Shown piece after piece: positions 1,726-6,846 of a stretch of DNA of 22,000 bases. Numbering within the stretch: the stretch's first letter is position 1; the number at the start of each line of letters is the position of its first letter. Location of the stretch: the IMG/VR virus record IMGVR_UViG_3300032287_003646, positions 1 through 22,000 of that record. One strand, given 5' to 3'. The notes beneath the pieces were generated by a model, which was given only the letters and a program-made list of their open reading frames with translations, ran no database searches and had not been told where the DNA came from. This DNA comes from a virus. A program made the translations under genes and the position numbers.

Positions 1726-2241
1726 TTAATACCTTGGAACGTATTCTTTAAATAGTTTTGTAGCTTCTTTGTTATATTGCGCACAAGCTTCTTCTATTGT
1801 ATTGAAATAACCTAAATTAAAATGTTTGTTATTATAAGTAATTTGTGCTGTCCATTTCTGTTTAGCATCAACCCAGCAAACTCCTTTGTATCCACTTGTA
1901 TTTGTTCTATTCTTATTTCTATTTGCAGAGTTTTGACTACGTGTTGCAAGACGTAAATTCAATGGGTTGTTATTGGATTTGTCTTGATCAATATGATCTA
2001 TGTCAAAATCTTTAGGATCAATTTTATTGTGTAAATAATAAACAATACGATGACAGTAATATTGTTTTGACATGAATCTGATTTTCCAGTAACCATTTGA
2101 TACATCTTTAGTTCCAGCTTTGGTATTAATTTGCACTCTGTTACTTGTAGGTAACAACCAAATTAATCCTGAAGTAGATTGATTGCAAACTTTAAAATGT
2201 TTTTCTAAAGTCTGTACGCAAGGTAATGGTTGGTAAGTCAT
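1726..2241 (-). CDS. HNH-AP2 homing-type endonuclease
   Basis: 171 residues. HNH region: His64 (YYCHRIVYYLH), Asp82-His83 in DIDHID, then NNNPLNLRLATRSQNSANR (90-108), as in HNH_3-type homing nucleases. An AP2-like DNA-binding domain follows at about 116-164 (GYKGVCW, ... FNLGYFNTIEEACAQY). Such proteins nick or cut a specific site and spread their own gene by repair. The gene is visibly much more AT-rich than the flanking genes, which suggests separate acquisition. It starts one base after the stop of the gene at 2243-2596, so it probably relies on that gene's transcript. The key residues look intact, so it is probably active. Confidence 0.9.
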   Translation of the reverse strand: MTYQPLPCVQTLEKHFKVCNQSTSGLIWLLPTSNRVQINTKAGTKDVSNGYWKIRFMSKQYYCHRIVYYLHNKIDPKDFDIDHIDQDKSNNNPLNLRLATRSQNSANRNKNRTNTSGYKGVCWVDAKQKWTAQITYNNKHFNLGYFNTIEEACAQYNKEATKLFKEYVPRY

Positions 2242-2897: not shown

Positions 2898-2956
2898 TGA
2901 GTTACCTCCGAATGAGTGTGAGTTGAGCCAGTTTTACGTCATAGCTCAGGACGTGT

Positions 2957-3929: not shown

Positions 3930-4087
3930 TAGTAACCTCGTGTAGTGGTTTGAATGTATGCAGCAGAACAATTTGTCCGCTGCAATGTAGCAAAAGCTGC
4001 CGTTATAATGCCGATTAAAATGGCATAGGCTAAGATTTTGCTACTGTAATACTTAAATGAATCCATGGGATGCATTTGAATTTTCAT
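3929..4087 (-). CDS. Small single-pass membrane protein, 52 residues
   Basis: ATG at 4085-4087 overlaps the stop of the preceding gene (ATGA), and its TAA overlaps the next ATG (TAATG), so it fits between two coupled genes. Residues about 18-36 (KILAYAILIGIITAAFATL) form a TM helix, with a short basic/polar N-terminus before it and a polar tail with one Cys. Size and topology would fit a small envelope, holin-like or exclusion protein, but nothing identifies one. Confidence 0.68.
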   Translation of the reverse strand: MKIQMHPMDSFKYYSSKILAYAILIGIITAAFATLQRTNCSAAYIQTTTRGY

Positions 4088-4398
4088 GGTGTAATCCAGT
4101 CGTAATCACTTGGTTCATATACTGATTCGGACCCATCGTATTCTTCAATACGATAAGGGCCAAACACTTCTGCAATTCTTAAATCAGAACCAAGACCATT
4201 AGCTTTCTTGCCAAGTTCTTCTACAACTTGCACTAAGATTGGATTGTGACGAGCACAATCATATAAGTATGCAAAATCGTTGTGAAGACTGTTGACACTA
4301 GCTTCGCCTGTGAATCCTAACTCTTGCATTCTTGTTAAGGCTTCAACAGAAATGCTGAACCCTCCATAGCTACTGTTGTAAACAACTTTGGTAAGCAT
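4084..4398 (-). CDS. Conserved phage hypothetical protein, 104 residues
   Basis: Starts MLTKVVYNSSYGGFSISVEA after AAGGAGATTTA, a strong ribosome site. The pattern (KVVYN..YGGFSIS at the start, then NPILVQVVEELGKKANG at about 53-69 and YRIEEYDGSESV near the C-terminus) is one I recall from hypothetical proteins of many unrelated phages; no function is established to my knowledge. It leads the overlapping cluster 4398-3334. Its start follows a UUCG stem-loop element (4423-4475) by 24 nt. Confidence 0.8.
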   Translation of the reverse strand: MLTKVVYNSSYGGFSISVEALTRMQELGFTGEASVNSLHNDFAYLYDCARHNPILVQVVEELGKKANGLGSDLRIAEVFGPYRIEEYDGSESVYEPSDYDWITP

Positions 4399-4422
4399 TA
4401 AATCTCCTTAAGTAAAGTGTGC

Positions 4423-4475
4423 GCAGAACCTTGTGAGTTCTGCAGAAAGGGCCGAAGCCCTTAGTGCAGACTTCA
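4423..4475 (-). promoter_or_regulatory. UUCG-capped intercistronic hairpin, copy 1
   Basis: Read on the minus strand, it starts at the TGA stop of the gene at 4473-4730. TCTGCA pairs with TGCAGA, then a CT/TC internal loop, then AAGGGC pairs with GCCCTT around a UUCG tetraloop closed by C-G. The 3' arm can instead form GCAGAAC with GTTCTGC (7 bp). Compared with copies 2 and 3, stem and loop changes keep the pairing and the UNCG class. No T-run, so not a standard terminator. Confidence 0.7.
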
Positions 4476-4730
4476 GTCAGCTATACCATACTCGCGTTCC
4501 CATTTGATGAGATCACGATTGGTGTTAACTTTCTGTTCAAGTACCATGCAGATGGGCATTAGATCAGAGAACTGAGCCATGCCATCTTGGTACCTATAGA
4601 ACAACTCTAGTGCCTGCTGCCGAATCTCTTCGATAGACCAATCAATGCACGGGTGTGCACTGGTTGAGTCCCGACGAGCCAGCAGCCGAGCACGCTGAGT
4701 CAGTAGCTCTTCAACGTAGGATACTTCCAT
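4473..4730 (-). CDS. Helical hypothetical protein, 85 residues
   Basis: Starts MEVSYVEELLTQRARLLARR. It is predicted mostly alpha-helical and mixed-charge, with no membrane segment. The ribosome site is weak (CAGGTCAACC then ATG). It is flanked by UNCG stem-loop elements on both sides: 4776-4824 before its start and 4423-4475 beginning at its stop codon. No family recognised. Confidence 0.72.
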   Translation of the reverse strand: MEVSYVEELLTQRARLLARRDSTSAHPCIDWSIEEIRQQALELFYRYQDGMAQFSDLMPICMVLEQKVNTNRDLIKWEREYGIAD

Positions 4731-4775
4731 GGTTGACCTGAGTTAAGTAGAACGAGGGCAGTACAGATGTACTGA

Positions 4776-4824
4776 GCAGACATGAAGTCTGCAGAGAGGG
4801 CCGTAGCCCTCAGTGCAAACATCA
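4776..4824 (-). promoter_or_regulatory. UACG-capped intercistronic hairpin, copy 2
   Basis: On the minus strand: TGA stop (4822-4824), GTTTGCA pairing with TGCAGAC, CT/TC internal loop, GAGGGC/GCCCTC with a UACG tetraloop. The stop codon itself can pair with a downstream TCA. The GCAGAC arm can alternatively pair with GTCTGC (loop TTCAT). A further 6-bp hairpin, CAGTAC/GTACTG, follows. Plus-strand 4776-4825 is identical to 5270-5319 over 50 nt. Confidence 0.75.
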
Positions 4825-4992
4825 GTCTTTAGCTATATACTCCATGCACCACTCTGGTAAATACACCAATGGAAATTGAGCAACTCTATTTCCATCTGCT
4901 TGTATTACAGGTGCATGTCGATGACAAGTTCCTGATGTAATGTGACCTAGATTTTCGGTAGGCTCAAAAGCTTTGCAGTTAGTGCAATCCAT
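4822..4992 (-). CDS. Small Cys-rich putative zinc-binding protein
   Basis: Taken from ATG 4990-4992 it is 56 residues: MDCTNCKAFEPTENLGHITS, then GTCHRHAPV, FPLVYLPEWCMEY. Cys-x2-Cys near the N-terminus, Cys-x-His/Arg-x-Ala-Pro in the middle and a Trp-Cys near the end match a small phage protein type I recall with CxxC...C.R.AP...WC, probably binding one metal ion. This start lies 4 nt after the stop of the upstream gene and gives the usual short N-terminus. An upstream ATG at 5034 (adjacent GAGGT) would add 14 residues and overlap the preceding gene. Function unknown. Confidence 0.72.
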   Translation of the reverse strand: MDCTNCKAFEPTENLGHITSGTCHRHAPVIQADGNRVAQFPLVYLPEWCMEYIAKD

Positions 4993-4996
4993 GTTC

Positions 4997-5248
4997 TTAG
5001 TAGCAATAAGTGTTGACATTACCACGTGAGTCATACCTCACTTGGCAATTAACTGAGTAACCCTGGGGACCTTGGTAATACACATTGTAATTACCATTGA
5101 GTGTCTGCCTTACGGTAGACATGCCCCCTTGGGAGTTATAACAGTTGTATCCACCACCATAAGTGGAGTTACACCTTGTATAGTATTGTGCATGCACCGC
5201 ACTAGGCGCTGCAATAATACACAACACACTTAGCATTAGCGAACGCAT
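4997..5248 (-). CDS. Small secreted Tyr/Asn/Gly-rich protein
   Basis: 83 residues with a clear signal peptide (MRSLMLSVLCIIAAPSAVHA, cleavage after residue 20). The mature part, QYYTRCNSTYGGGYNCYNSQ and onward, is rich in Tyr, Asn, Gly and Gln with four Cys, suggesting a small disulfide-bonded extracytoplasmic protein. There is no Shine-Dalgarno; the start follows UACG element copy 3 by 21 nt. Exported to the host periplasm or surface by inference; role unknown, with superinfection exclusion or lysis accessory as possibilities. Confidence 0.75.
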   Translation of the reverse strand: MRSLMLSVLCIIAAPSAVHAQYYTRCNSTYGGGYNCYNSQGGMSTVRQTLNGNYNVYYQGPQGYSVNCQVRYDSRGNVNTYCY

Positions 5249-5269
5249 AACAAATAGTTAGCAATGGAA

Positions 5270-5318
5270 GCAGACATGAAGTCTGCAGAGAGGGCCGTAG
5301 CCCTCAGTGCAAACATCA
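5270..5318 (-). promoter_or_regulatory. UACG-capped intercistronic hairpin, copy 3
   Basis: Identical to copy 2 over 50 nt (5270-5319 against 4776-4825) and placed the same way: it begins at the TGA stop (5316-5318) of the upstream gene and ends about 21 nt before the next ATG. It has the same two mutually exclusive pairings (outer stem with the stop-proximal arm, or the downstream GCAGAC/GTCTGC hairpin). Confidence 0.75.
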
Positions 5319-5555
5319 GCAAGCTGACTGTGCCATGCGATCATAGTCCGCAATGTCTTCTAGCAATTGCAGATGCTTTTCTGCCTGGAACCATTGGTTG
5401 ACAGACATTACTGCCAACAGTGGTACAGTCACCTCATCTGACTCATGCCACTCGCTAAGCAAATCCATGGCATACTCTTGAGCTTGTAGCTCAGTTTCAA
5501 ATAGCTCTGGTTGTCCGTTGACAACACAGACATAGGCATTCTTGATCTTAGACAT
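5316..5555 (-). CDS. Hypothetical protein, 79 residues
   Basis: ATG at 5553-5555 gives MSKIKNAYVCVVNGQPELFE. A TTG at 5588 would add 11 residues, but those only translate the GCCACAC hairpin of the upstream RNA element (the same peptide-like string appears before the gene at 6232), so I reject it. The protein starts with a short strand-like segment (AYVCVVNGQPELFETELQAQEYAMDLL), resembling small phage proteins that begin with such a strand and a helix. The C-terminus is helical. No Shine-Dalgarno; 12 nt from the hairpin. Confidence 0.72.
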   Translation of the reverse strand: MSKIKNAYVCVVNGQPELFETELQAQEYAMDLLSEWHESDEVTVPLLAVMSVNQWFQAEKHLQLLEDIADYDRMAQSAC

Positions 5556-5567
5556 TGAATTGAATAG

Positions 5568-5635
5568 GCCACACTCAGTGTGTGGCAATGCTGAGTAGGG
5601 GGATTCGATCCCCCGGCATCACGCCTGGTACTCAG
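5568..5635 (-). promoter_or_regulatory. tRNA T-arm-like intercistronic element, copy A
   Basis: On the minus strand: CTGAGTA (containing the upstream gene's TGA stop), a 3-bp mini-hairpin GGC/GCC, then GGGGG-ATCGAAT-CCCCC, a 5-bp stem with a 7-nt T-loop-like loop, then TACTCAG closing the 7-bp outer stem. ATT and a 7-bp hairpin (GCCACAC/GTGTGGC) follow, ending 12 nt before the next ATG. There is no D-arm, anticodon arm or CCA, so it is not a working tRNA. Confidence 0.72.
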
Positions 5636-5814
5636 AATGGAAATGAATCAATCTCTAAAAGGTCTTGCTCCCAGTCATCAAAAGACTGGAAATAAGCCTG
5701 TGCTTGCTCTTCTGTCAAGTAATGCTTCTCGCATCCTTGGAAATAAGTGTCCGCAAATGTGTGATCACAGTCAGCATCAAAAGGATTGCGCTTGACTCGA
5801 ACGGAGTAATACAT
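5632..5814 (-). CDS. Acidic hypothetical protein, 60 residues
   Basis: ATG at 5812-5814 gives MYYSVRVKRNPFDADCDHTF. The frame is open much further upstream, but that stretch runs antiparallel through another gene and looks non-coding. Three aromatics, two Cys (16, 28) and an acidic C-terminal half (SFDDWEQDLLEIDSFPF) stand out. The beta-like start plus helix suggests a small alpha/beta fold. The start has no Shine-Dalgarno and lies 15 nt after element C; its stop codon sits inside element A. Confidence 0.68.
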   Translation of the reverse strand: MYYSVRVKRNPFDADCDHTFADTYFQGCEKHYLTEEQAQAYFQSFDDWEQDLLEIDSFPF

Positions 5815-5829: not shown

Positions 5830-5897
5830 TGCCACGGTATTGTGGCAATAACTGGCCAGGGGTTTGCACCCTGGCACCCGCTTTAACGGATCAGCTA
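5830..5897 (-). promoter_or_regulatory. tRNA T-arm-like intercistronic element, copy C
   Basis: On the minus strand: TAGCTG (reaching into the TGA stop of the gene at 5891-6118) pairs with CAGTTA with one G-U; a mini-hairpin CCG/CGG; then CCAGGG-TGCAAAC-CCCTGG, a 6-bp stem with a 7-nt loop keeping the C56, A57, A58 and Y60 pattern of T-loops. TGCCAC/GTGGCA follows and ends 15 nt before the next ATG. The plan matches copies A and B despite different stem sequences. Confidence 0.62.
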
Positions 5898-6118
5898 TCC
5901 AGCATTTCGTCCACGTAGGACTTAATGACCTGGAGGTGATCGGCAGTAAGTGTCTGGCTATGGCCATGCTCAAGCAGATCAAGGATCTGAAGCATGACCT
6001 TATCCCCAGCCTCTTGCCGAGTCGGTACGCCACACATATCGTAAATCTCTTCTTGCGACATCGCAGTGATGTCAACGCAATCAAGGTTACGAACGGTGAC
6101 GGTGGTGGTGTTAGCCAT
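5891..6118 (-). CDS. Hypothetical protein, 75 residues
   Basis: ATG at 6116-6118 (MANTTTVTVRNLDCVDITAM), preceded by CGGAGCTACC, a clear Shine-Dalgarno; six further upstream codons are open but unsupported. A Thr/Val-rich beta-like start is followed by an acidic helical region (MSQEEIYDMCGVPTRQEAGD) and a C-terminal helix. Its stop lies in element C. No family recognised. Confidence 0.74.
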   Translation of the reverse strand: MANTTTVTVRNLDCVDITAMSQEEIYDMCGVPTRQEAGDKVMLQILDLLEHGHSQTLTADHLQVIKSYVDEMLDS

Positions 6119-6408: not shown

Positions 6409-6477
6409 GCCACACTCAGTGTGTGGCAATACCAAGTAGGGGGATTCGATCCCCCACCTCACGGCTTGTTACTTGGT
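6409..6477 (-). promoter_or_regulatory. tRNA T-arm-like intercistronic element, copy B
   Basis: On the minus strand: ACCAAGTA (overlapping the upstream TAA stop), a mini-hairpin GCC/GGT, GGGGG-ATCGAAT-CCCCC, then TACTTGGT closing an 8-bp outer stem. ATT and GCCACAC/GTGTGGC follow. The outer-stem bases differ from copy A, but every pair is kept, while the T-like arm and last hairpin are identical. This covariation argues for selection on RNA structure. Confidence 0.74.
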
Positions 6478-6672
6478 AGCGTAACCGTTATCTGTGCACC
6501 AATCCATGTGGATGTAATGTGCAGATGCAGGCCAGTCGTGTGTACGACACTGAAGTGCTGTAGCTTTATCAAGTTGCGCAACGCCTACTGTTGCCAGTAA
6601 TGCTGTAGCTCCTACACATGCCACTACCATGGCAATAAATAGAGCTGCAACTTTGTTAGGTGAAACGATCAC
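6469..6672 (-). CDS. Small membrane protein, GTG start
   Basis: 67 residues from GTG at 6670-6672, chosen because AGGAG lies 7 nt upstream. Residues about 8-33 form one TM helix (AALFIAMVVACVGATALLAT). The C-terminal part has QCRTHDWPASAHYIHMDWCT, with two Cys and several aromatics/His in a spacing (C..HDWP..AH..HMDWC) I recall from small membrane proteins of other phages. Probably anchored in the inner membrane with the Cys-containing tail outside. Role unknown. Preceded by a long structured leader. Confidence 0.75.
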   Translation of the reverse strand: MIVSPNKVAALFIAMVVACVGATALLATVGVAQLDKATALQCRTHDWPASAHYIHMDWCTDNGYATK

Positions 6673-6830
6673 GGGATTACTCCTGTGTGTGCGGTGCCTA
6701 TCTCCGCTGGAGGCAATAGCTAAAGGGAGAGTTGCACTCCCTCCTGCAATGATGCAGGGGACTACCCTTAGCCTGGGCTACCATTCTGTACCGCGAAAGC
6801 GGGGGATTGTAGCACACCCTAATTACGAGC
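6673..6830 (-). promoter_or_regulatory. Structured leader of the GTG gene
   Basis: 158 nt without a gene, but with much pairing potential: GCTAAAGGG near 6719-6727 against CCCTTAGC (6766-6773); an inner hairpin CCTGCA/TGCAGG with a 4-nt loop; CTCC/GGAG next to the ribosome site; and CCGC/GCGG around a 4-nt loop just after the putative start of transcription. I could not match it to a known riboswitch. It may regulate the gene at 6672 or be a small RNA. Confidence 0.4.
6806..6814 (-). promoter_or_regulatory. Extended -10 promoter candidate
   Basis: TGCTACAAT on the minus strand matches an extended -10 (TGnTAnAAT). No good -35 lies at the usual distance. It lies between the 16-bp palindrome (6831-6846) and the structured leader, a sensible start for transcription of the genes from 6672 leftwards. 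Confidence 0.4.
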
Positions 6831-6846
6831 GATACGAATTCGTATC
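6831..6846. repeat. Perfect 16-bp palindrome
   Basis: GATACGAATTCGTATC reads the same on both strands. It lies 3 nt after the stop of the gene at 6850-7113 and about 17 nt upstream of the TGCTACAAT promoter candidate. As RNA it folds to a 6-bp hairpin with an AATT loop, extendable by AGC/GCT around a one-base bulge. It could be an operator or a stop-proximal hairpin. Confidence 0.6.

Follow-up and report, generated by a model that had tools for sequence, protein, structure and literature searches.

A putative portable RNA element with a paired stop codon and two alternative folds at small-gene junctions of S-EIV1-like cyanophages

Known structures at stop codons and gene junctions

Transcription and translation attenuators are built on alternative 1:2 and 2:3 pairing, and the early-gene junctions of phage T7 carry RNase III processing hairpins. 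Structure just after the stop codon has been described under the name of ribosome termination structures (RTS), which lower re-initiation in a synthetic Escherichia coli operon and are found between genes separated by more than 25 nt (Chemla et al. 2020, Nat Commun 11:4827; PMC7518266; also reviewed in PMC12548453). In the take-off hairpin of T4 gene 60 (PMC11194080), the stop codon itself lies within a short hairpin.

The element described here has three arms, in which arm A pairs with arm B (stem P1) or arm B pairs with arm C (stem P2), and since arm B is shared, the two folds are mutually exclusive. Like RTS, it is a stable structure right after a stop codon, with the first fold outside the footprint of a stop-bound ribosome. 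However, RTS are a statistical property of unrelated sequences, whereas the element is a homologous, covarying RNA family in which, unlike in RTS, the stop codon is paired, the register is fixed and two exclusive folds are conserved. It resembles attenuators in its three arms, where a ribosome on the first would be expected to let the second pair with the third, but it follows an open reading frame (ORF) instead of standing in a leader and shows no terminator, covered start site or gene-specific context. The T7 hairpins are likewise intergenic, with an internal loop, between small phage genes; the element adds to this a second conserved fold and an embedded stop codon. It shares with T4 gene 60 a stop codon in a hairpin but has no conserved take-off codon, and its downstream genes are separate, with start codons of their own.

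Three copies in the window

The window is the whole 22,000-nucleotide stretch analysed, taken from a 22-kb virus record (IMGVR_UViG_3300032287_003646), and is a fragment of an S-EIV1-like cyanophage. Synechococcus phage S-EIV1 (KJ410740) is the sole annotated phage with DNA similar to it, and the layouts match: small genes occupy the strand opposite to the terminase and its neighbours. The window's terminase is on the plus strand (phrog_38, E 1e-76), and all three copies of the element lie in a run of very small genes on the minus strand. Among these small genes is also a 171-aa ORF (1726-2241, minus strand) that by eye is like an HNH homing endonuclease. The features of the region are as follows.

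5316 to 5588, minus strand: ORF ending at the stop codon of copy 1; start codon uncertain
5270 to 5319, minus strand: copy 1, full element; stop TGA 5318-5316, arm A 5314-5308, inner hairpin P1b 5305-5300/5295-5290 with UACG loop 5299-5296, arm B 5287-5281, stop partner UCA 5279-5277, arm C 5275-5270
4826 to 5268, minus strand: 443-nt cassette of two small genes (4997-5248 and 4822-4992) between the identical copies 1 and 2
4776 to 4825, minus strand: copy 2, identical to copy 1; stop TGA 4824-4822, arm A 4820-4814, P1b 4811-4806/4801-4796, arm B 4793-4787, UCA 4785-4783, arm C 4781-4776
4473 to 4730, minus strand: 85-aa gene between copies 2 and 3, whose relatives served as the anchor for comparison
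4423 to 4476, minus strand: copy 3, diverged; stop TGA 4475-4473, arm A 4470-4465, P1b 4462-4457/4452-4447 with UUCG loop, arm B 4444-4437, UCA 4436-4434, arm C 4429-4423
4084 to 4398, minus strand: ORF starting about 24 nt past copy 3

A preliminary description of this DNA had proposed three minus-strand hairpins here, each beginning at a stop codon. All three are present, and their z-scores against dinucleotide shuffles (-3.5, -6.2 and -4.8) put them above chance. The build it gave was found three times: the TGA is followed by an outer stem, then by an internal loop of CU/UC, and then by an inner stem of 6 bp capped by UUCG or UACG. In every copy, as claimed, the 3' arm of the outer stem doubles as the 5' arm of a second hairpin. 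The TGAs terminate real ORFs, of 85, 70 and 90 aa. Copies 1 and 2 share an identical 51-nt block (CTGATG...GTCTGCT) and are thus not independent. Since two of the three copies are identical, the covariation proposed within the window comes down to a single A-U/G-C exchange, which stands, and extends no further. The identical block runs from 1 base before the stop codon to 1 base past arm C, which indicates that the stop codon is part of the unit. Two things had not been noticed: the UGA of the stop is base-paired to a UCA, and the element belongs to a family.

Two conserved exclusive folds and a paired stop codon among relatives

The strong evidence for the element is comparative and comes from relatives in IMG/VR, freshwater cyanophages akin to S-EIV1, not from the window copies. 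A pattern search for the element led to five contigs; the 85-aa gene as query led to 29 loci in viral contigs, and a further pattern gave 35 (relatives are cited below by L numbers). Among 28 junctions upstream of the 85-aa gene, chosen via the protein alone and not by structure, 22 carry the element and 1 more has a slightly degraded copy that the scan missed. A sequence-blind scan with a light signature yielded 111 copies, about 99 of them unique, with 33 distinct A/B/C arm sets; a few of the 99 are probably chance matches (for example, L069 1300-1379, within coding-like sequence), and because many copies are related, there are fewer independent events than sequences. Sequence-blind scanning placed the three-arm arrangement at 95 sites on the gene strand and 24 on the other, and at about 13 sites on both strands combined in dinucleotide-shuffled DNA. 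In cellular genomes, no copy was found at the sensitivity of a protein scan and a DNA-pattern scan of genome contigs. Rfam gave no match in the window at gathering score, none for the element at relaxed thresholds either, and only one ordinary tRNA over 134 kb of relatives; ARAGORN found no tRNA within the window. No description of this element was found in a literature search that covered few subscription papers.

Comparison across these relatives shows that both folds are conserved. Over the 33 arm sets, 95.5% of P1 cells and 99.0% of P2 cells are paired, and partners shuffled 5,000 times reach at most 91.4% and 89.9%, respectively; because the scan demanded both stems, these percentages are partly a product of detection, and the detection-free checks (the junctions of the 85-aa gene and detection by P1 alone) are weaker than they are. 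Arm sets such as GTTTGC/GCAGAC/GTCTGC, TCCTGC/GCAGGA/TCCTGC, GACTAC/GTAGTC/GGCTAC, GCCTAC/GTAGGC/GTCTAC and CTCTGC/GCAGGG/CCCTGC (A/B/C) show that a change in arm B is accompanied by change in both A and C, so that compensation spans three arms. In a 39-sequence alignment of P1 together with the stop-codon helix (P0), 91.8% of cells are paired, with a covariation score of 0.309 versus 0.145 when shuffled and 34 cells changed on both sides versus 9.3 in shuffles; sliding the register by 1 to 3 columns drops pairing to 30 to 47%. When sites were detected by P1, the inner hairpin and TGA but without P2, a P2 stem of at least 6 bp followed in 67 of 163, and in 18 after the downstream 24 nt were shuffled; the matches that lack P2 are mostly visibly unrelated chance matches. 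Masking arm A gave P2 in 70 of 70 folds; in the unmasked RNA, P1 was the more stable, by a median of 2.2 kcal/mol (range, -1.1 to 8.1). The preliminary description had claimed two folds that exclude each other and had suggested a covariance search in relatives; the claim is well supported by the masking and by that comparison, P1 and P2 both covarying over the 33 arm sets. Two exclusive pairings that are both conserved are also what a three-arm attenuator would present.

Arms A and C are identical in only 7 of the 33 sets, and 27 of the 38 differences between them still allow pairing with B by G-U wobble (chance, 1/3; p=2e-6), which is the signature of an RNA and not of a DNA repeat. A DNA repeat and nothing more is therefore an unlikely account of the copies. 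As a separate observation, the palindrome GATACGAATTCGTATC, found in the window at 6831-6846 near the start of the small-gene run, is the inner hairpin of many three-arm copies (L013, L016, L021 and others).

The pairing of the stop codon and its fixed register likewise emerge from the comparison. In 68 of 99 unique copies, the first base of an ORF stop lies exactly 9 nt ahead of arm A's anchor base, and the stop and the triplet facing it are UGA/UCA in 54, UGA/UUA in 12 and UAA/UUA in 2. The ORFs ending at elements use UGA in 80 of 101 cases, versus 18 of 42 in part of S-EIV1. The middle base of the stop and its partner are G-C in 76 copies, G-U in 14, A-U in 4 and A-C in 0 (Fisher p=0.001, a value that comes from few UAA-like cases among related sequences). 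Between this helix and P1, most copies have a pyrimidine-pyrimidine mismatch. P1b begins at nucleotides 13 to 16 in 99 of 99 copies, numbered from the first base of the stop or of whichever triplet stands in its place. E. coli ribosomes halted at a stop codon leave mRNA trimmed 12 nt downstream of the codon, a point read there as the edge of the ribosome (PMC3834316). The trim corresponds to position 15, and so a ribosome at the stop should open P0 and P1 and spare P1b. The earlier proposal that a ribosome ending at the TGA would cover the first arm thus finds good support in both the geometry and the comparison. With the 15-nt footprint set aside, a placement chosen in this analysis, the next 40 nt fold at -6 kcal/mol or lower, the energy required of RTS, in 98 of 99 copies (median, -16.3 kcal/mol); at other ORF stops in the same contigs the median is -5.8 kcal/mol and 49% reach -6.

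Junction context, proposed function and rival explanations

The comparison also shows the element to be portable. Several copies occur per genome, adjoining at least 7 upstream and at least 8 downstream protein families, and the two-gene cassette between copies 1 and 2 is absent there in L010-L012 and present in L004. Upstream of the 85-aa gene, the element is replaced by a T-loop tRNA-like module in 3 genomes and by an H-type pseudoknot in 2 genomes and S-EIV1 itself. No element was found at stops that the following gene overlaps (TAATGG or TGATGG), such as those in L012, L013 and L015-L017. In three-arm copies, the next ATG is 48 to 225 nt from the stop (median, 83.5), beyond the 25 nt of RTS, and lies a median of 24 nt past arm C (quartiles, 20 to 29), outside both folds. 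The frame before it is open in 79 of 91 cases, a count that says little because the spacer is short and CA-rich. A Shine-Dalgarno-like motif is absent at 87 of 110 next starts. Intrinsic termination was rejected, there being 0 terminator-like sites in 4300-5700 and a T run in 1 of 111 copies. With no such site in that region and the start beyond arm C, neither fold blocks a terminator or a start in the manner of an attenuator.

A P1-only sister class, TGA-N-GGTTAC...GTAGCC-N-TCA, has the paired stop and P1 but lacks a conserved arm C, and shows covariation of its own (GGTTAT/ATAGCC and GGTTAA/TTAGCC).

L020 3813, L021 3771, L023 3956, L029 3582, L034 3788, L004 10184 (reverse strand) and others: sites of the P1-only class

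These sites lie at the ends of ORFs and have no gene start nearby, and the palindrome GATACGAATTCGTATC often comes after them; in 14 copies, which probably represent one or two orthologous junctions, the next ORF starts 224 to 522 nt away. The contrast with three-arm copies offers a hint, suggestive only, that P2 serves a nearby start.

Other RNA modules were observed at junctions of these genomes. A second, larger family consists of tRNA-like three-way junctions with a T-loop (TGCAAAC or ATCGAAT), seen in the window at 5588-5635, 5840-5905, 6420-6480 and 6705-6790 (minus strand), at L003 12000-12066 and in many relatives; the closing stem usually holds the stop codon (93 of 128 candidates), and Rfam gives only a sub-threshold 19-bit tRNA match (E 1.9). 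After the T-loop module stands an H-type pseudoknot, GCCTCCA[GCGG]AGATAGGCA[CCGC], with a compensatory variant [GGG]/[CCC] (window 6691-6714, minus strand; L011 near 5175; L003 11755-11777), which alternates with a GCCACA..TGTGGC hairpin. Another likely intergenic pseudoknot, CAGAG[GGATGCGT]CTCTGTAATA[ACGCATACATCC], occurs at L005 4966-5003, L006 3851-3893 and L008 near 1710-1670 (minus strand). A recurrent pseudoknot-like junction with compensatory variants, ACGTCC[TGAACC]ATGACGTTAAACT[GGTTCA], is found in the window near 2925-2955 (minus strand), in L005 near 7298, in L006 near 5569 and at L003 12486-12520, and replaces the three-arm element before the 85-aa gene in L003, L025 and L037.

We favor, at a probability of roughly 0.5, the reading that the element is a portable bistable ribosome termination structure, which we infer would flip on termination and insulate neighbouring genes. 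The resting fold would be P0, P1 and P1b, that is, UGA:UCA, a 1x1 mismatch, a 6- to 7-bp A:B stem and a variable P1b cap. A ribosome terminating at the UGA would cover the stop and arm A, with P1b remaining folded at its leading edge, and the freed arm B would pair with arm C to form P2, 20 to 30 nt upstream of the next start codon. A structured barrier would then stand between the stop and the next start whether the ribosome is present or absent, though P1b alone might suffice for this. Most likely, the barrier would prevent a ribosome that has terminated from drifting on or re-initiating in the next gene, where fresh initiation would find an unobstructed landing site; the 3' side of the message would probably be protected as a side effect. 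The many gene pairs served, travel with a cassette, replacement by other structures and absence at overlaps argue for such a generic barrier between neighbouring genes.

An unlikely but serious alternative is that the element acts in mRNA processing or stability, with P0-P1-P1b as a nuclease site, for example, for RNase III, or as a barrier to 3' exonucleases that guards the ORF and its stop, and with P2 maintaining the barrier while a ribosome occupies the stop. A hairpin of about 16 or more bp with an internal loop, beginning right at the stop and located at small-gene junctions, would suit this role, as would the trimming of E. coli ribosomes halted at a stop to +12 (PMC3834316) and the copies without arm C where no close gene follows. 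However, the total helix length varies widely (inner segment, 22 to 61 nt), and the covariation of arm C with B is not predicted by RNase III specificity.

Regulatory coupling appears rather improbable. Here translation of the upstream gene would set P2 and so raise or lower downstream initiation, as in an attenuator acting on translation. The exclusive 1:2 and 2:3 pairings of near-equal energy, the tight spacing from arm C to the next ATG and the absence of arm C where no start follows closely are in keeping with it, but the next start region takes part in neither fold, and the service of many unrelated gene pairs, with other structures swapped in, points to a generic role. The switch on a particular downstream gene envisaged in the preliminary description is for the same reasons unsupported: the element has its many families on either side and moves with cassettes, other structures take its place at one orthologous junction, and the next start lies beyond the second hairpin. 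A general junction element, a termination structure or insulator that possibly also protects the mRNA, fits better.

A recombination seam or mobile repeat, in which selection acts on a DNA repeat that shuffles cassettes and the RNA folds are incidental, is very unlikely. It would account for the several copies in each genome and for the identical 51-nt copies flanking a cassette that some relatives lack, but the A/C differences are wobble-compatible, the stems persist through sequence change, the strand bias is that of the genes and the stop codon keeps a fixed register; recombination may occur at copies as a by-product. A signal for translational bypassing or stop readthrough, like the T4 gene 60 take-off hairpin and suggested by the UNCG-capped hairpin with a stop codon at its base, was rejected as barely credible, since a conserved take-off codon was looked for and the last sense codon proved variable (GAC, TTC, AAC, GTC and others), and since the gene that lies downstream starts at an ATG of its own and does not depend on which gene lies upstream.

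More tentatively, and at somewhat less than even odds, a toolkit of interchangeable RNA modules may punctuate the polycistronic mRNA of these phages, in which three-arm hairpins and tRNA-like T-loop junctions take the stop into a helix, H-type pseudoknots stand right behind it, and the fold of the three-arm class is reset by each terminating ribosome. If so, this would be the first case of a homologous RNA family that is organised around stop codons and senses termination. What is known of structure behind stop codons is mostly a statistical trend; here it takes the form of a discrete covarying family. With about 100 natural variants in a fixed stop register, with and without the second hairpin, the question of how stop-codon structure governs the fate of the ribosome would become directly testable by compensatory mutation, and the element would offer compact insulator parts for operons.
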